From: a virus
Reading direction: 5' to 3' (one strand)
Length of the DNA: 21,483 bases
Virus record (IMG/VR): IMGVR_UViG_3300032293_002265
Coordinates: 1 to 21,483 of that record
Positions 2,106 through 21,483 of this stretch are shown here, piece after piece; position 1 is the stretch's first letter, and the number at the start of each line of letters is the position of its first letter. A program made the position numbers and the translations under genes. The notes below the pieces were generated by a model. The model made no database searches. It worked only from the letters and a program-made list of their open reading frames with translations, and had not been told where the DNA came from.

Positions 2106-2348
2106 TTAAAGAAATTTTTCTAATGATGATGTACCTGAATTGGTTTTTGTTTTTAATACTTTGATTTGTTTTTGAATGTAAGATTTGGCAGTTGAATAGT
2201 TGTTGGCAGTGTGAACTTGTTGTCCTTTATAGACAATAATAAACTTCTTTCCCCAAGGAATTGCTGCCCATTCCCCATCTTTTGATACAAAACCATTTGG
2301 GTCTCCTGGAGTTGGATTCAGAAGACCCTCATTCTGAATATTAGTCAT
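2106..2348 (-). CDS. Hypothetical phage protein (80 aa)
   Basis: The frame starts with ATG 2348, sharing one base with the TAA stop of the 46-residue gene (TAATG), a typical coupling arrangement. The product begins MTNIQNEGLLNPTPGDPNGF, then has a beta-rich centre (GEWAAIPWGKKFIIVYKGQQVHTA) and a basic helix (TAKSYIQKQIKVLKTKT) before a short Ser/Thr tail. It looks like a small soluble globular protein. The 45-nt gap after its stop is the only real gap in this gene run. I do not recognise a function. Confidence 0.7.
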   Translation of the reverse strand: MTNIQNEGLLNPTPGDPNGFVSKDGEWAAIPWGKKFIIVYKGQQVHTANNYSTAKSYIQKQIKVLKTKTNSGTSSLEKFL

Positions 2349-2488
2349 TAAAATGCCACAGTCACATTCAGAATTTGTGCATTTGGATACTGAGACTTTG
2401 CGACTCGTTTTGCATCCTGATAGTCACGAGCATAGCATTCCACATAGAATACATTGCCTTGAACATAGCACTGAACACGATGTTTCAT
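2348..2488 (-). CDS. Very small phage protein (46 aa)
   Basis: A 46-codon frame from ATG 2488 to TAA 2348-2350. AGAGG at 2497-2501 is a well-placed ribosome site. The product begins MKHRVQCYVQGNVFYVECYA and ends DAKRVAKSQYPNAQILNVTVAF: strand-strand-helix-strand, with the A-K-x-x-A-x-x-x-Y-P-x-A helix ending common to small phage proteins of this shape. It is the first gene after the extended -10 promoter at 2517-2525, so it probably heads the operon extending to the left edge. Function unknown. Confidence 0.7.
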   Translation of the reverse strand: MKHRVQCYVQGNVFYVECYARDYQDAKRVAKSQYPNAQILNVTVAF

Positions 2489-2578: not shown

Positions 2579-3700
2579 TCACACAGCAACCGCCTCAAGA
2601 ACTTTAGACAGTTCGCGCAACTTAAGTTCATTGTTTTTGGCTGCAGTGCCATTACAAGCCCAGTAAAAAGTGGATCCATCATCATTGACAATTGTATTGT
2701 CACGATAAAGTTCATCATTAATGTCAAAGAACTTCATGACCAATTCGTCAGTAATTTCACCTTCATAATTAGAAATCAACCAAAAAACATTTGCTACAGA
2801 ATTGGGACGAACTTTTGCAGGATCGATTTCGTTAATAATGTTTTCGATGATAGTAAGGTTTTTCACTACTTTATCTTTGTCAAGAACCTTGTTAGTGTAA
2901 TCATAATCTTTCTTAGATTGAGCGATTCCAAAAATTTCACCAGGTTGCATTTCAGAAAAGATAATAGTATCAACCAACCATTCATCACCTTTCAAACGCT
3001 TCTTGTAATTAGTACCATGAATTCGAATAAGGAGAGTGAAAAATTTGTTGCTAAGTTCCCGAATAAAATCTGCATAGTCCGTCCCAAAAGCATTCCGCTT
3101 TTCTTGGCGATTCAACGGGCATCCAGCGTTAACATTCAAAAACACATCACTTAGACCCTTATATCCAATCTCGGTGTAAGTGTTAACAACAACTTTGCGA
3201 TTTCTGAGTTCATGTTGCATTGTTTCGCTCAGTTTAGAAAAAACCCTGTTGTGATTACCAACAACCAATGGTTCTACTGAATCCCCCATAATAATCTTGT
3301 AGGAACCTCGTGGAATAGTGTACTCATCATTGAAGAACCTGGTGAACCAATTAAACCGATTGTTACCATCCAAAGTGATGTAACTAAAGCATTCTGCCCT
3401 CAATTGTTGAAAATAATCCTTTGCTCGATCATCACTTTCTTGAAGTTTTTTACTAGCAGAGGCACGAATAAGATCTACAAAAACAAATGAACCCTCAAGA
3501 CGATCCAGAAGAAAAGATTGAAAATACCCTTTACAATCTTTTGCGTTCCATGCTTCAGGCCGCTGAAATTCAGGAGGAGCAATTGTTGCAGAAATATTGT
3601 CCATCATGTTGCGTACCGTAAGAATTTCAGTAGGACGCTTCATGGGAGTAATTTCCTTCACTTCTTTTTTAAGAAGATCCAGAATGTTAGATTGTGTCAT
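2579..3700 (-). CDS. DUF262 (ParB/GmrS-like) domain protein, no nuclease domain (373 aa)
   Basis: Three DUF262 hallmarks are visible: PPEFQRPEAW at 42-51 (family pattern FQR-x-x-W), LDGNNRFNWF at 110-119 (the DGxxR nucleotide-site motif) and FLNVNAGCPLNRQEKRNAF at 187-205 (the N-x-G-x-P-L-x-x-x-E-x-R-N motif). The remainder (about 206-373) is helical and lacks the H-x-x-P/HNH signature of the DUF1524 nuclease found in GmrSD-type restriction enzymes. The family has a ParB/sulfiredoxin-like fold and often binds or hydrolyses NTPs. A role in host takeover, anti-defence or inter-phage competition is inference. It follows the helicase gene by 114 nt and has its own promoter (3772-3800); the ATG has no Shine-Dalgarno. 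Confidence 0.85.
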   Translation of the reverse strand: MTQSNILDLLKKEVKEITPMKRPTEILTVRNMMDNISATIAPPEFQRPEAWNAKDCKGYFQSFLLDRLEGSFVFVDLIRASASKKLQESDDRAKDYFQQLRAECFSYITLDGNNRFNWFTRFFNDEYTIPRGSYKIIMGDSVEPLVVGNHNRVFSKLSETMQHELRNRKVVVNTYTEIGYKGLSDVFLNVNAGCPLNRQEKRNAFGTDYADFIRELSNKFFTLLIRIHGTNYKKRLKGDEWLVDTIIFSEMQPGEIFGIAQSKKDYDYTNKVLDKDKVVKNLTIIENIINEIDPAKVRPNSVANVFWLISNYEGEITDELVMKFFDINDELYRDNTIVNDDGSTFYWACNGTAAKNNELKLRELSKVLEAVAV

Positions 3701-3814: not shown

Positions 3815-5050
3815 TCAGCGTTTGATCACACTGACAGCAGGTTCGCCTTGAACAAAGATGGTGTCCACGACTGCCTGCAGTTTCTTGGCGGTTGTAATGC
3901 CAGTGTTACTATACACGGGAACATGGACGAATCCATATGCCTTGTGATAGTCCTTCAACTGTCCAGGAACCAGAGTACCTTCTGAGAGGCGCCTAGCATC
4001 GTCTGTGTGGAGTCGAATCACACGCCCAATGGTCTGCGCCATAGCAATGTAATCCATGTTCCTCATGAGCACACAGGAGGTCAATCCAGGGCAGTTAATG
4101 CCTTCACTGAGAATGGAATAATGAAGAAGAATGAATTTCTTCTCAGAATCCTTACCCCACTTTGTCAGAGTGTCAAAGAACACCTCACGACCAACCTTTT
4201 GATTGTTGATGAATGCACCATACTTTGCAGTAATCCACATGACATCATAACCATGAGACTGAACCTCACTCATAAAATCAGTCTCTGCAAGCATCCGAAT
4301 CAGAACCTTGGTGTTTGGTGCAGCAACCAAGACCTTCTCCATATGATCTTCGTTGAGAATCGTATCCAAAAGAGTCATGCAATCACGCTCCGCAGCAAAC
4401 TCTTTGTCACGATGAACATTCATAGAATGAACTTGAACTTGAGGAGGAAGAATATATCCACCTTCAACGAGTTCAGGTGCAGAAACATTACAGATTACTT
4501 GACCATATACAGTGCCATCATTCATTCCTGGTTTGGATACAATAGATGAATGCTTCGGAGTTGCAGTAAAGAAATAGCAACGATTCGCATGAGCACTGAA
4601 ATGCTTGGTTGGTTCAAAGAAATGGCGTTGAACGGAATTATGTGCTTCATCAAAATAAATTGTGTCCACATGAATATCAGATCGTTGAATCTGAATCAGT
4701 GAATGATAAGTCGTAAAGATCAGTTTGTGACCTTTGACCTGATAATTCCAAGCAAAGATCTTACTTGGATTAGTTGTGCTAAAGTGATGTGTCTCACCAG
4801 AGTGTACATGCATCACAGAAGCATTGGTGATATGCTCCAAGAATTCTGCAGACAACTGCTCCGCGAGCATGATTCTTGGTGCCACCACCACAATTGTCTG
4901 AGGAACGCTATTGGAAAACTCTCTGATTGCATCAAAAATCATAGTCGGAGTCTTACCACCTCCAGTGGTCATCAGCACTTGACCCTTGCTGTGCTGCTCC
5001 ATGGCACTGTAAGCACGGTTCTGATGTGGACGAAGAATCATGAGTTTCAT
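3815..5050 (-). CDS. SF2 DEAH-type DNA/RNA helicase (411 aa)
   Basis: A complete superfamily 2 helicase. Numbered from the longer ATG at 5065, the motifs are: LRPHQ (11-15), Walker A TTGGGKTP (33-40), DEAH (139-142), TATP (167-170), motif V around SEGINCPG (320-327) and QTIGRVIR (344-351), ending in a helical tail. The type III restriction/UvsW-like core points to ATP-driven translocation or unwinding in phage replication, recombination or transcription. It is short and lacks obvious accessory domains. I chose ATG 5050 (MKLMILRPHQ) over 5065 because the TATAAT of the promoter at 5064-5072 contains the earlier ATG, so that codon would not be in a transcript from this promoter. No Shine-Dalgarno is seen. 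Confidence 0.92.
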   Translation of the reverse strand: MKLMILRPHQNRAYSAMEQHSKGQVLMTTGGGKTPTMIFDAIREFSNSVPQTIVVVAPRIMLAEQLSAEFLEHITNASVMHVHSGETHHFSTTNPSKIFAWNYQVKGHKLIFTTYHSLIQIQRSDIHVDTIYFDEAHNSVQRHFFEPTKHFSAHANRCYFFTATPKHSSIVSKPGMNDGTVYGQVICNVSAPELVEGGYILPPQVQVHSMNVHRDKEFAAERDCMTLLDTILNEDHMEKVLVAAPNTKVLIRMLAETDFMSEVQSHGYDVMWITAKYGAFINNQKVGREVFFDTLTKWGKDSEKKFILLHYSILSEGINCPGLTSCVLMRNMDYIAMAQTIGRVIRLHTDDARRLSEGTLVPGQLKDYHKAYGFVHVPVYSNTGITTAKKLQAVVDTIFVQGEPAVSVIKR

Positions 5051-5063
5051 TGTGTATGGAGTC

Positions 5064-5072
5064 ATTATAGCA
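5064..5072 (-). promoter_or_regulatory. Extended -10 promoter TGCTATAAT for the helicase
   Basis: TGC (5070-5072) plus TATAAT (5064-5069) on the minus strand repeats exactly the nine bases at 2517-2525. No -35 is present; the position is taken by the terminator hairpin. Transcription would begin near 5057, giving a leader of only about 7 nt before ATG 5050. Confidence 0.6.
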
Positions 5073-5074
5073 TC

Positions 5075-5096
5075 AAAAAACCCCCTATGATGGGGG
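5075..5096 (-). terminator. Rho-independent terminator
   Basis: On the minus strand CCCCC, a 6-nt loop (ATCATA) and GGGGG are followed directly by TTTTTT. This is a canonical intrinsic terminator placed upstream of the helicase promoter. It would end transcripts from the structural genes to the right and any short RNA begun at the promoter at 5163-5191. Confidence 0.8.
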
Positions 5097-5102
5097 TGTA
5101 GT

Positions 5103-5122
5103 GGACAGTTCTTAAAGTGTCC
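5103..5122. repeat. Inverted repeat, copy 2 of the 18-nt dyad motif
   Basis: GGACA and TGTCC form a 5-bp inverted repeat with a 10-nt centre. The minus-strand core GACACTTTAAGAACTGTC differs at only two positions from the copy after the DUF262 gene. It again precedes a GC hairpin and a TGCTATAAT promoter. Confidence 0.6.
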
Positions 5123-5162: not shown

Positions 5163-5191
5163 AGTCTAGCAGTATTAGAGCATTATGTCAA
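5163..5191 (-). promoter_or_regulatory. Sigma70-type promoter overlapping a stop codon
   Basis: TTGACA (5186-5191), a 17-bp spacer and TAGACT (5163-5168), with TGC before the -10, form an extended sigma70-type promoter on the minus strand. The TGA within TTGACA is also the stop codon of the 112-residue gene. The first termination signal is only about 80 nt downstream. Confidence 0.55.
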
Positions 5192-5526
5192 TCTTTTGAA
5201 TCTTTTTCTATTTCTTCAACCATTTCTTCAAATGCTTTTTCCCAACCATCTGTGGATTCCTTCCACTTTTCTAATGGACAACTATCAAGTATTATTCTTG
5301 CTTTAGTTTCAAGAAAACATCCACATTCAATACATCTTTTTTGATCAGAGTCATATTTGTCACAGGATTTGCATATTTCTAATCTTTCATTAAAAAGATT
5401 ATCGTCTGCAAATAAGTTTTTACCGTTTGTACTCTGAATATGTTTAATTATATCTAAAGTAAACTTAGATAAATTTTTAGACTGCTCAATCAAAGAAGGA
5501 TATTTTTTTTCCACGAATAAACTCAA
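5188..5526 (-). CDS. Cysteine-rich, zinc-finger-like phage protein (112 aa)
   Basis: The central region carries C52-x-x-C55, C65-x-x-C68-x-C70 and C83-P, followed by L-E-K-W. The pattern CxxC...CxxCGC...CP-x-x-KW is one I associate with small uncharacterised proteins of T4-like marine phages; it probably binds zinc. An N-terminal helix and an acidic C-terminal helix (EEMVEEIEKDSKD) flank it. No ATG is available: the frame opens with TTG at 5526, or GTG at 5514 (VEKKYPS), and neither has a good Shine-Dalgarno. It follows the 415-residue adhesin by 11 nt, so it is probably the last gene of the late unit. A structural or assembly role is inference from position. Confidence 0.75.
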   Translation of the reverse strand: MSLFVEKKYPSLIEQSKNLSKFTLDIIKHIQSTNGKNLFADDNLFNERLEICKSCDKYDSDQKRCIECGCFLETKARIILDSCPLEKWKESTDGWEKAFEEMVEEIEKDSKD

Positions 5527-5537
5527 AAATAACTGAT

Positions 5538-6785
5538 TTATTTAGTACCTAGTATTAAATCGTTTCTACCATTCGGATCAAATCCATAGTTAGATCCAAC
5601 AACAGCTGCTCCAGGACTACCTCCATTAGATCCATAATATGCAGAAGCAGGTGCAATGTAAAAAATATTCGTCATAGTTTGAGTGTCGTTTCTTATAGTT
5701 CCACCACCTTGTTTTGCCCAATCACCACCATTTCCACCAACTTTTCCATTCTCTCCAGTTGTTGCATATGTTGGGCAATTTGCAGCAGTTCCCGATGTTG
5801 GTCCATTTGTTATATTTAATGTTGATATTGCATTTGATCTTGTTTGATTATATCCTTGTCCTAAACCACCATTTCCACCTGTTCCTCCAGGAGCACCAGG
5901 TTTATTTTTTGGATCATAGACTTCACAAAATGCAGGTCCTATGCAAGTATTTCTGCACCAAATAAAACAATTACATCCTCCACCAACATTATGACCTCCA
6001 TATCGACGAGCATCCTTAGAATCATATTTTGTACCGTTAATGGTTACTGGAGTGTTTGGATTTCCACATTGTGGATACCATTCACAATTACAACCACCTC
6101 CCTTTGTATATGTTCTTCTTTCCCAACATGGTCCGTTAGGTCCAGTCCAACCATCCGCACCTCTTGCACCACCTCCGCCACCACCTTTAATTGCGGAACC
6201 TTCATTCATTGTAATCAAAATTTTAGATGTTACTCCTTGACCAGTAGAATTTACATATAAAGCGTTTCCTCCTACTCCAGAATTTCTTGCACCACCAGCA
6301 CCTAAAATTTGACCACCATTTCTCAATTCAATTTCAAAATTATATGCCTCAGTATCAAAATACGCAGCATATTTTGATACTGAGATGGAACCTATAGTTC
6401 CATCTACGTAAAAAACTTTATTAATATTTTTATTTAAATTTGAATTCCAAGATTGGGAAGATATATTAATTCCATTATTATTAGTATCAGATGAATTATC
6501 ATTTGTTTCGCTTTGTATGATATCATAGTATTTAATTTTTCCACCATAAAATTGAGATAGTTTCCAATTTATAGATGATGAAATCGTAGAATTTTCTGTT
6601 GCATTTGGGACTATTGGATTTGATTCAGCGTTACTTGTATTTCTTAGTAATTCTGAAGCCTTAATCGAACCACTATCAGTTTCTTTGAAGTTAGTTCTCA
6701 GTGAAGAAAATGATATTGGAGTGGAACCAAGTAATACATTGTAAAATTTTCCAGCGCCTTTATTGTAAGAGATTGTAACTGCCAT
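5538..6785 (-). CDS. Glycine- and cysteine-rich tail fibre/adhesin (415 aa)
   Basis: The N-terminal third resembles virion-attachment segments of phage fibres, with a repeated serine-rich pattern (STPISFSSLR at 21-30 and NWKLSQFYGG at 73-82). From about residue 160 the chain is glycine-rich (GGGGGGARGADGW at 201-213; GGTGGNGGLGQGYNQ at 300-314), as in polyglycine-sandwich receptor-binding tips. Ten cysteines (220, 232, 234, 240, 271, 273, 277, 281, 287, 337) lie in this part, with the tag GGGCNC occurring twice (229-234 and 268-273). The last 60 residues end in GSNYGFDPNGRNDLILGTK. The gene sits 11 nt after the 633-residue fibre gene. I infer a distal host-recognition protein. The ATG at 6785 lacks a Shine-Dalgarno. 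Confidence 0.8.
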   Translation of the reverse strand: MAVTISYNKGAGKFYNVLLGSTPISFSSLRTNFKETDSGSIKASELLRNTSNAESNPIVPNATENSTISSSINWKLSQFYGGKIKYYDIIQSETNDNSSDTNNNGINISSQSWNSNLNKNINKVFYVDGTIGSISVSKYAAYFDTEAYNFEIELRNGGQILGAGGARNSGVGGNALYVNSTGQGVTSKILITMNEGSAIKGGGGGGARGADGWTGPNGPCWERRTYTKGGGCNCEWYPQCGNPNTPVTINGTKYDSKDARRYGGHNVGGGCNCFIWCRNTCIGPAFCEVYDPKNKPGAPGGTGGNGGLGQGYNQTRSNAISTLNITNGPTSGTAANCPTYATTGENGKVGGNGGDWAKQGGGTIRNDTQTMTNIFYIAPASAYYGSNGGSPGAAVVGSNYGFDPNGRNDLILGTK

Positions 6786-14604: not shown

Positions 14605-14687
14605 TGCGAGTAGGGAGACTTGAACTCCCACGGGCAATGCCCAACAGATTTTAAGTCTGGTGTGTCTACCGATTCCACCATACTCGC
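14605..14687 (-). tRNA. tRNA-Leu (anticodon UAA)
   Basis: The 83-nt gene folds fully: acceptor GCGAGTA with TACTCGC, D-arm closed by GTG/CAC with a GG-containing loop, anticodon loop CTTAAAA (anticodon TAA), a long class II variable arm (GGGC-ATT-GCCC) and T-arm GGGAG-TTCAAGT-CTCCC. The discriminator is A and CCA is not encoded. The top anticodon-stem pair is a C-U mismatch. It reads UUA, common in AT-rich phage genes. A separate sigma70-type promoter sits 14 nt upstream. Confidence 0.95.
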
Positions 14688-14700
14688 TTGTTGTAAGACC

Positions 14701-14729
14701 ATTATAACTCAAAGAATCATAATAGTCAA
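14701..14729 (-). promoter_or_regulatory. Sigma70 promoter for tRNA-Leu
   Basis: TTGACT (14724-14729), 17 bp, TATAAT (14701-14706) on the minus strand: eleven of twelve consensus bases with ideal spacing. It fills the gap between two tRNA genes and would start transcription near 14694, about 7 nt before mature tRNA-Leu. Confidence 0.75.
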
Positions 14730-14730
14730 G

Positions 14731-14802
14731 TGCTCGTTGTCGGTTACGATCCGACCTTCTATCGTTTATGAGACGATTGCATTCCCAGATTGCTAAACGA
14801 GC
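14731..14802 (-). tRNA. tRNA with anticodon CAU (Met, or Ile2 if lysidine-modified)
   Basis: The 72-nt gene folds as a cloverleaf: acceptor GCTCGTT/AACGAGC, D-stem GCA/TGC, anticodon arm ATCGT-CTCATAA-ACGAT (anticodon CAT), 5-nt variable loop, T-stem GTCGG/CCGAC, discriminator A, no encoded CCA. It is not an initiator type, because the acceptor's first pair is G-C and the anticodon stem lacks three G-C pairs. The T-loop ATCGTAA is unusual: normal U54 and A58 are swapped to A and U. Elongator Met and Ile(k2C-AU) cannot be separated by eye. It may be partly decayed or specialised. Confidence 0.8.
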
Positions 14803-14826
14803 ATTCGCTATTCGCAAATAGCGAAT
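14803..14826 (-). other. Perfect 10-bp hairpin filling the spacer between two tRNAs
   Basis: ATTCGCTATT and AATAGCGAAT pair perfectly around a 4-nt loop. One end is directly adjacent to the first base of the CAU tRNA (14802) and the other end coincides with the discriminator base of tRNA-Ile (14826). In a joint transcript the hairpin would separate the two tRNAs exactly, so it is probably a processing or folding element. Confidence 0.7.
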
Positions 14827-14897
14827 GGGAATACTGGGAGTTGAACCCAGACTAAGCCCTTATAAGGAGCCCGCTCTAACCATTAAGCTATACTCCC
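14826..14897 (-). tRNA. tRNA-Ile (anticodon UAU)
   Basis: The 72-nt gene has acceptor GGGAGTA/TATTCCC (one G-T), D-arm GCTT/GAGC with a GG-containing loop, anticodon arm GGCTC-CTTATAA-GGGCT (two G-T pairs) giving anticodon TAT, and T-arm CTGGG-TTCAACT-CCCAG. The discriminator is A and CCA is not encoded. It should read AUA directly. Most bacteria read AUA with a lysidine-modified CAU tRNA instead, so this anticodon is uncommon. Its own consensus promoter is 16 nt upstream. Confidence 0.9.
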
Positions 14898-14912
14898 TTA
14901 AAACCCAGATCA

Positions 14913-14941
14913 ATTATAGAGGATCTGGAACTCTTTGTCAA
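14913..14941 (-). promoter_or_regulatory. Perfect consensus sigma70 promoter for tRNA-Ile
   Basis: TTGACA (14936-14941), exactly 17 bp, TATAAT (14913-14918) on the minus strand: all twelve bases match consensus. TGA within the -35 is the stop codon of the antitoxin gene. Transcription would begin near 14906, about 9 nt before mature tRNA-Ile, and could include the CAU tRNA. Confidence 0.85.
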
Positions 14942-15111
14942 GGTGCTTCGTTGTTTTCTTCAGTGTGTATTCGTATGAGTTCATCATCGGCAGGCATCAT
15001 TACTGCCGCCTGCCCATTCTCATTGACAATACCCAATTGTTCTCCATTTTCGACTCGTTCCATAAGTTCGTCGAATCTCTCTTGAAACTCTTCTACTGTA
15101 AAAACTTCCAT
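14938..15111 (-). CDS. Phd/YefM-family antitoxin-like protein (57 aa)
   Basis: A 57-codon frame from ATG 15111 to TGA 14938-14940. The sequence MEVFTVEEFQERFDELMERV then ENGEQLGIVNENGQAAVMMP has the Phd/YefM layout: a short strand, a helix with E-F-x-x-x-x-x-x-L-x-x-V, then N-G-x-x-x-x-I-x-x-x-x-G-x-A-A-V-x-x-P. In the family this half dimerises and binds operator DNA, while the C-terminal tail blocks a toxin (Doc, YoeB). Here the tail is short and acidic (DDELIRIHTEENNEAP). No recognisable toxin is adjacent; the gene 3 nt upstream encodes 61 residues of unknown type. It may be an orphan antitoxin or a small repressor. It is read from the promoter at 15326-15354. Confidence 0.7.
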   Translation of the reverse strand: MEVFTVEEFQERFDELMERVENGEQLGIVNENGQAAVMMPADDELIRIHTEENNEAP

Positions 15112-15114
15112 TTT

Positions 15115-15300
15115 TCAAAGGGGATCGGTGTAAGCAAGACAATCATCACTTACCTGAGTGCGAACTACTTCCAGTACATTCATAAACTGGTCAACACTCT
15201 CACATTCTACTACTCGTTCTGAACCTTCGCTAGAATATAGGTAAAATTTACGTGCAAGAGTATCGATAACGCAACGACTCAAGAACTCTTCGGTTTGCAT
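15115..15300 (-). CDS. Hypothetical small protein upstream of the antitoxin (61 aa)
   Basis: The product begins MQTEEFLSRCVIDTLARKFY and continues LYSSEGSERVVECESVDQFM, then a helix NVLEVVRTQV and a short tail ending CLAYTDPL. A strand-strand-helix core is likely. It is the first gene after a perfect sigma70 promoter, with a leader of about 20 nt and only weak ribosome-site character (AAAGA). The antitoxin-like gene follows after 3 nt, so they form one operon. Too short for known RelE, Doc or YoeB toxins and without their motifs; a partner relationship to the antitoxin is possible but not shown. Confidence 0.7.
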   Translation of the reverse strand: MQTEEFLSRCVIDTLARKFYLYSSEGSERVVECESVDQFMNVLEVVRTQVSDDCLAYTDPL

Positions 15301-15325
15301 TCGGTCTTTGATTGATTACCTGAGT

Positions 15326-15354
15326 ATTATAGGGCATCTGGGGAGGGTTGTCAA
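15326..15354 (-). promoter_or_regulatory. Perfect consensus sigma70 promoter of the islet operon
   Basis: TTGACA (15349-15354), exactly 17 bp, TATAAT (15326-15331) on the minus strand. All twelve bases match consensus. It begins 9 nt after the stop codon of the 973-residue fibre gene and would start transcription near 15319, upstream of the 61-residue gene, the antitoxin and the tRNAs. Confidence 0.85.
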
Positions 15355-20735: not shown

Positions 20736-21483
20736 TTATACAATTGACCAACGAGCGCCACTCTGAACTGTTACTGTATATCCACTATTTATTCGAATTG
20801 GTCCAACACTCATTTCATTATAAGCGGAAGTTATAGTATAATTCTCATTTAAAATCGGAACATTACGGAAGAATGGTTTATTGGACACAGTAAATGGTCC
20901 TCCAGTAGAAAATTCTCCAGTAGAAGGATTGTAAGTAAGTTTTGGTGTATCAAGTTTAATATTAGTTTGTTGGATCCCTTCTCCAAGTACAAATGATGGA
21001 TAATATAATTGATTATCACTTACTCTTAAAACATTTGTTTTATCTGCATTGGCAGCACCAGTTCCCGGAGGACCTTGAAGTCCTTGAGCTCCTTGTCCAC
21101 CACCACCTTGAAGTCCTTGAGTCGATCTTCCTTGAGCACCTTGAAAACCTGTCCCTTGAATTCCTTGAGTCCCTTGATCTCCTTTAGTACCATCACTACC
21201 AAAACCACCTTGAATTCCTTGAACGCTTCTTCCTTGAGTTCCTTGATCACCTTTTTCACCTTGAAGTCCTTGAGTTCCTTGAGTTCCTTGAGCGCCTCTT
21301 CCTTGAAGTCCTTGAATTCCTTGATCACCTTTTTCACCTTGAAGTCCTTGAGTTCCTTGAGTTCCTTGAAGTCCTTGAGCACCTCGTCCTTGAAGTCCTT
21401 GAATTCCTTGATCACCCTTTTCACCTTGAAGTCCTTGTCTTCCTTGAAGTCCTTGTCTTCCTTGAGTACCTTGATCTCCTTGA
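20736..21483 (-). CDS. Collagen-like fibre protein, 5' end outside window (partial)
   Basis: The minus-strand frame ending at TAA 20736-20738 stays open to the right edge (248 residues visible). The first about 140 residues are Gly-X-Y triplets, mostly GLQ, GTQ, GIQ with GEKGDQ, ending GLQGPPGTGAANADK. The rest (about 100 residues) is a beta-rich head: VLRVSDNQLYYPSFVLGEGI ... TSAYNEMSVGPIRINSGYTV then TVQSGARWSIV, a C-terminal domain I associate with marine T4-like phage fibres. Collagen-like triple helices give rigid shafts in phage fibres. The start and any attachment domain lie beyond the window. Gln at Y is typical of phage and bacterial collagens, which lack hydroxyproline. Confidence 0.85.
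   Translation of the reverse strand, partial: QGDQGTQGRQGLQGRQGLQGEKGDQGIQGLQGRGAQGLQGTQGTQGLQGEKGDQGIQGLQGRGAQGTQGTQGLQGEKGDQGTQGRSVQGIQGGFGSDGTKGDQGTQGIQGTGFQGAQGRSTQGLQGGGGQGAQGLQGPPGTGAANADKTNVLRVSDNQLYYPSFVLGEGIQQTNIKLDTPKLTYNPSTGEFSTGGPFTVSNKPFFRNVPILNENYTITSAYNEMSVGPIRINSGYTVTVQSGARWSIV
20786..20793 (-). promoter_or_regulatory. Possible internal late promoter box AATAAATA
   Basis: AATAAATA on the minus strand lies inside the 3' end of the collagen-like gene, about 57 nt before ATG 20729. It matches the late box, but the DNA is AT-rich and coding, so a chance match is possible. Confidence 0.3.
21059..21483 (-). repeat. 9-nt periodic repeats encoding Gly-X-Gln
   Basis: The DNA is built from CAAGGA-NNN units, with longer near-identical blocks of about 78-87 nt that each begin with the codons for LQGEKGDQG. 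At least three such blocks are visible. The periodicity is coding and reflects the collagen-like triplets. Such arrays can expand or contract by recombination. Confidence 0.85.

Follow-up and report, generated by a model that had tools for sequence, protein, structure and literature searches.

The window considered here is the whole stretch of 21,483 nucleotides of the IMG/VR virus record IMGVR_UViG_3300032293_002265, which is, as judged by its sequence, a relative of the cyanomyoviruses; its source is a virus that infects cyanobacteria of the ocean or of fresh water. Positions 5064–5122 of this window are occupied by a composite gene boundary, all of whose elements lie on the minus strand and which is referred to below as copy 2. 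Read along that strand, it consists of a dyad (GGACACTTTAAGAACTGTCC, 5103–5122; PWM score 36.1) that represents a putative operator, a short gap, a hairpin (ACCCCCATCATAGGGGGT, 5080–5097), a run of six T (5074–5079), the dinucleotide GA and the extended −10 box TGCTATAAT (TGC-TATAAT, 5064–5072), and transcription is predicted from the class consensus to start at the A at position 5057, 7 nt past the −10 box. A preliminary description of this DNA had placed a terminator, six T and an extended −10 here and had reported pairing of GACA with TGTC and of TT with AA within the dyad; each of these elements was recovered, and the dyad also contains an internal C:C mismatch. When up to 3 mismatches are allowed, this dyad has a single occurrence in the window, and shuffles expect none.

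The hairpin and the T run form an intrinsic terminator (5074–5097) located in the spacer between the operator and the −10 box. It has the two marks of an intrinsic terminator, a stem rich in G+C and a T run after it (6-bp stem, 6-nt loop, six T), folds at −11.6 kcal/mol and is listed second among the 18 found in the terminator scan of the window. The longest stem in that scan is an 18-pair stem (TCTCAGTATCAAAATATGC..., 6347–6385, minus strand) that lies within a 415-aa ORF (5538–6785). As had been suggested, the −35 position of copy 2 is taken by the hairpin, and no TTGACA-like −35 is present at 16–18 bp.

The gene that copy 2 would drive encodes a ResIII/DEAD helicase (3815–5050, minus strand; 411 aa from the ATG at 5050). 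This ATG is likely the true start and leaves a 7-nt leader after position 5057; the start chosen by the ORF finder (5065) falls within the −10 box. Upstream lies a gene for a 112-aa DUF6171 protein (5188–5526, minus strand), whose transcript would end at the copy 2 terminator. The nearest match over the copy 2 module is found in Synechococcus phage S-SRM01 (74% identity over 84% of the 151-base query), which keeps the same order of the 112-aa gene, the dyad and a DEAD/DEAH helicase.

The designation "copy 2" implied a first copy, and this copy is real. Copy 1, also on the minus strand, consists of a longer dyad (TGTGACACTTTCATAACTGTCACA, 2551–2574; PWM score 45.2), a spacer hairpin with a weak T tract (2530–2549) and the same extended −10 box TGCTATAAT (TGC-TATAAT, 2517–2525), with a spacing of 30 bp as measured from the 20-bp core of the dyad. 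It is predicted to drive a 46-aa gene (phrog_685; 2348–2488, minus strand), relatives of which in P-SSM2 and S-PM2 likewise come after a module. A third, weaker module is present at 1116–1173 on the minus strand (dyad 1154–1173, TATGAT 1116–1121), before a 94-aa ORF starting at 1093, and a weak site at 3945–3964 was excluded, being inside the helicase ORF. Between copy 1 and the helicase gene, a 373-aa protein (2579–3700, minus strand) shows a weak match to GmrSD_N, under the Pfam cut-off, and may be a relative of type IV restriction proteins; its gene is preceded by a host-like promoter (TTGACA-17-TAAACT, 3800–3772).

Copies 1 and 2 belong to a class of modules, found in IMG/VR contigs and in nine cyanomyovirus genomes (viz. 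Syn9, S-PM2, P-SSM2, P-SSM4, P-HM2, S-SRM01, metaG-MbCM1, one uncultured phage, and S-TIM5, whose operator has diverged), in which the dyad TGTGMCAsTTN4AAsTGKCACA is located 30–32 bp upstream of the −10 box. The nine genomes contain 156 distinct modules, 8 to 32 in each, when one strand is counted per dyad. By PWM scan, 14–34 strand-sites are found per trained phage genome and 0–1 in the reversed-sequence controls, which test for chance but not for every bias; no module was found in the T4 genome at the same score threshold. Since eight of the nine genomes served to train the matrix, most weight is given to the reversed-sequence control and to S-TIM5, a more distant cyanomyovirus outside the training set, which has approximately 9 modules with a shifted operator (AGCCA/TGGCC).

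A scan of IMG/VR with the strict dyad pattern includes chance palindromes, and the spacing was therefore chosen as the test. In IMG/VR stretches that were drawn by the dyad only, TATAAT lies 29–32 nt past the exact dyad in 40 of the 59 occurrences within 115 nt (binomial probability ~1e-44), with a peak at 30–31 nt, and the IMG/VR scans yielded at least 120 stretches with an offset of 29–32 nt vs. 8 with an offset of 39–42 nt. Within 80 non-redundant strict modules the main spacings are 30 and 31, the −10 box is TATAATA, the flanks are ACT, and an A or G start lies seven bases beyond the −10 box. The constant part of the module is the dyad together with its distance to the −10 box, and the stem-loop is optional. 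It could be supposed that copy 2 is an ordinary extended −10 promoter joined to a terminator and that its dyad is a chance palindrome, given that TGCTATAAT can by itself support transcription; the enrichment, the spacing statistics and the conservation before orthologous genes make this extremely unlikely.

In copy 2 the upstream placement of the dyad given in the preliminary description is correct, and the gap, given there as about 34 bp, measures 33 bp. This slightly exceeds the class mode of 31; a spacing of 33 is seen in 11 of the 156 modules, at the tail of the range, and the helicase module of P-SSM4 has it too. The centre of the copy 2 dyad is at −55.5 and that of the class at about −53.5, and this longer spacing may weaken the copy 2 promoter.

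The modules are placed as promoters would be. In 134 of the 156 modules, as compared with 30% of random positions, an ORF that starts with ATG and has 30 codons or more begins within 80 nt past the −10 box, and the distance from the −10 box to the ORF has a median of 23.5 nt. In each of the 8 core genomes a module precedes cobS and the CobT-like gene; the gp150-like gene has one in 8/8 genomes and the helicase gene in 7 phages including the present one; in the helicase promoters the dyad and the −10 box are common to the phages but the intervening sequence is not conserved. In P-HM2, a nine-gene minus-strand block (PHM2_056-064) has minus-strand modules, so that the modules have been inverted along with the genes. 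At the level of the box itself, TGn is found in 35% of modules vs. 14% at other −10 boxes. Fewer than 5/6 matches to a TTGACA-like −35 at 16–18 bp are seen in 88% of the TATAAT modules; a −35-like hexamer with at least 5/6 matches is found in the other ~12% (2% at random positions), and some modules may therefore work without a factor. These observations suggest that the module acts as a promoter. A second class of promoter is present in the same phage within 14605–15354 of the window, where host-like promoters without a dyad occur on the minus strand (perfect TTGACA-17-TATAAT at 15354–15326 and 14941–14913, near-perfect at 14729–14701).

The spacer is the variable part. Stems of at least 5 pairs are present in 30 of the 156 spacers, where shuffles expect 5.5, and 21 of these 30 have a T-rich tail, so that about 20–30 modules carry a stem-loop and approximately one in seven to eight bears a terminator. 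The spacing is identical in modules with and without a terminator. In the terminator-bearing modules, the spacer would appear to do two jobs, ending the upstream transcript and setting the distance of the operator. Three CTGCCC-type repeats replace the terminator in some spacers (Syn9 at 44776; IMG/VR L102, L109 and L068), hinting at a further binding array.

The composite nature of copy 2 recalls the PeSL (promoter early stem-loop), a terminator-promoter composite reported from T4-like phages (Arbiol 2010; Comeau 2014; cited in PMC4503421). The likeness lies in a terminator of the stem-loop kind and a promoter, of early type in PeSLs and putatively so here, that are joined in one intergenic cassette, as they are in copy 2, and that are repeated in a T4-like phage genome, whereas in the present class, which is numerous in each genome, an upstream dyad at a fixed distance is constant and the stem-loop is found in only about 20–30 of the 156 modules. 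A role in gene shuffling between phages has reportedly been proposed for PeSLs (work cited in PMC4503421), and the modules described here, being intergenic and common to several genera, could similarly serve mainly as recombination seams, i.e., as patches of homology. We regard this as quite unlikely, since the sequence between dyad and −10 box is not conserved and hence offers little homology, and the conserved spacing indicates transcription; the two roles are nevertheless compatible.

Whether the dyad is read as DNA or as RNA can be addressed from the 156 modules. The frequencies of the dyad pairs approximate the product of the frequencies of the two sides at every position, no base-pair covariation is found at any dyad pair, and G/G or C/C, which cannot pair, are commoner at positions 6/15 (73/156) than the paired combinations G/C or C/G (51/156). 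Because its two sides do not covary, the dyad is read as a DNA site and not as an RNA hairpin, as far as comparison of sequences can tell. The dyad of copy 2 adjoins the terminator and folds weakly (−5.2 kcal/mol), as might an RNA element such as a second hairpin aiding termination or a processing mark on the upstream transcript; however, this is very unlikely in view of the excess of unpaired combinations, and the dyad is also kept at its fixed spacing where the spacer has no terminator. The suggestion that the dyad has operator-like symmetry is borne out to the extent that mismatches which would break an RNA stem are tolerated and that the element was not found in the host genomes searched.

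The DNA site would require a protein that binds it, and its distribution bears on the origin of this protein. One 189-kb phage-like contig aside, the exact dyad was found in 0/250 and the relaxed module in 0/100 host-family genomes, with two control matches for the exact dyad; the relaxed module gave 24 matches in 13 phage and virus records and zero control matches. A scan of genome contigs returned 14 matches. The module is present in only one of them, L258, which is the 189-kb phage-like contig and comes from the single-cell assembly of a Prochlorococcus; the matches in Anabaena and others seem to be due to longer hairpin repeats or to chance. The absence from host-family genomes and the presence in phage records favour a factor that is probably of phage origin. 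A host transcription factor (e.g., NtcA, PhoB, LexA or one of the CRP type) would have the merit that early genes require a factor that is present at once, and host PhoB is used by cyanophages at some promoters (PMC10976474). It is nonetheless unlikely, though with a chance that deserves to be kept in mind, that such a factor binds the dyad, as neither NtcA (GTAN8TAC) nor Pho-box (CTTAN7CTTA) signatures are found in any of the 156 modules, the host-family genomes searched do not have the module, and the letters of the operator drift between phage clades, as in S-TIM5.

The search for the putative phage factor has provided leads. No clear HTH regulator is present among the 25 of 62 Pfam families listed in a scan of 126 Syn9 proteins. 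The comparison of core genes points to CobS, whose gene itself carries a module in the genomes noted above, and to a 104-aa protein (Syn9 gp136), which S-TIM5 also has. A structural model of the N-terminus of phage CobS shows the order helix-strand-helix-helix-strand-strand with a pLDDT of ~79–87 over residues 11–60; it matches PDB entries only weakly (E ≥ 0.2), many of these entries being winged-helix regulators, and this region is predicted to form a winged helix-turn-helix ahead of the AAA+ domain. Since S-TIM5 carries modules but a close relative of CobS was not found in it, CobS stays a lead and was not accepted as the regulator. The usual cobalamin-biosynthesis label of cyanophage CobS (e.g., L202:2987–3286) may mislead. 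The absence of motA and/or asiA has been reported from marine T4-like cyanophages (PMC5780444). There is a small chance that the modules form an undescribed cyanophage-wide regulon whose switch is a phage protein, CobS being one candidate, that has taken the place of the missing MotA/AsiA system.

The reading that we consider likely is that the site belongs, as one of its promoters, to a regulon of cyanomyoviruses, in which host polymerase would act on the extended −10 box, a phage dimer would act as an activator on the dyad, and a terminator is an optional part of the spacer. The extended −10 box would be recognized by the RNA polymerase of the host together with the main sigma factor and, there being no usable −35, a dimeric phage-specific DNA-binding protein on the 20–24 bp dyad near −53.5 (−55.5 here) would contact the polymerase from that position and help the helicase gene to start. 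The terminator within the fixed-length spacer would stop upstream transcription a few bases short of the point at which the new transcript starts. We infer the protein binding, the dimer, the polymerase contact, the activation, the encoding by the phage and the early timing. The earlier proposal that a factor on the dyad stands in for the −35 agrees with the fixed spacing across the 156 modules and with their conservation before orthologous genes in different genera. A palindrome at a fixed position could also be the operator of a repressor that silences these promoters until, or after, a given stage, and successive repression of genes is common in phages; but the dyad, at about −64 to −44, is clear of the −10 box and most of the promoters lack a −35, to which an activator is better suited, and we accord repression only a slim chance.

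The proposed activator-dependent promoter resembles the class I promoters (e.g., CRP at −61.5), in which a palindromic site has a fixed position on the upstream side of the polymerase footprint; it differs from them in its centre near −53.5, in its sequence and in the spacer terminator of some members. Doron and colleagues are said to have described (ISME J, 2016) a "novel regulatory element" of the early genes of Syn9 and P-TIM40. We presume that the operator may be this element of the Syn9 early genes and hence may already be known. The phage group is the same, and Syn9 has 13 modules, many of them in a small-gene block and before the helicase. In the middle promoters of T4, an activator site (the MotA box) combined with an extended −10 replaces the −35 (PMC2988021), and the present modules would similarly have a phage element in place of the −35 and have, in part of the sites, a TGn −10. 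However, the MotA box is 9–10 bp in length, has its centre at −30 and is the target of a monomer, unlike the 20–24 bp dyad near −53.5, and the MotA TGCTT core is found near −30 in 2/156 modules and is absent from copy 2.

It has long been asked how marine cyanomyoviruses, reportedly without MotA/AsiA, order their genes. With the operator consensus, its spacing, the list of regulated genes and the absence from hosts in hand, the search for the switch protein becomes a direct pull-down, and the module provides a rule by which promoters can be annotated and gene starts corrected in phages that are very abundant in the ocean. A very basic peptide of ~41 aa (MQLPNWQKHSKKEQKRTLKPQALRAAKKRRQSL...; S-PM2d 153611, S-SRM01 145702, S-TIM5 172224–172475) is common to distant cyanomyoviruses and comes after a module in S-PM2 and S-SRM01.

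Elsewhere in the window, three tRNA genes (Leu-TAA, Met-CAT and Ile-TAT) are located at 14605–15354 on the minus strand, and a 57-aa ORF (14938–15111, minus strand; MEVFTVEEFQERFDELMERVENGEQLGIV...) looks like a putative antitoxin of the Phd/YefM type. The region 21035–21481 consists of dense repeats with a 9-nt period (approximately 10 overlapping 87-nt copies), which suggest that an ORF running off the window beside fibre-like genes encodes a collagen-like G-x-x tract.
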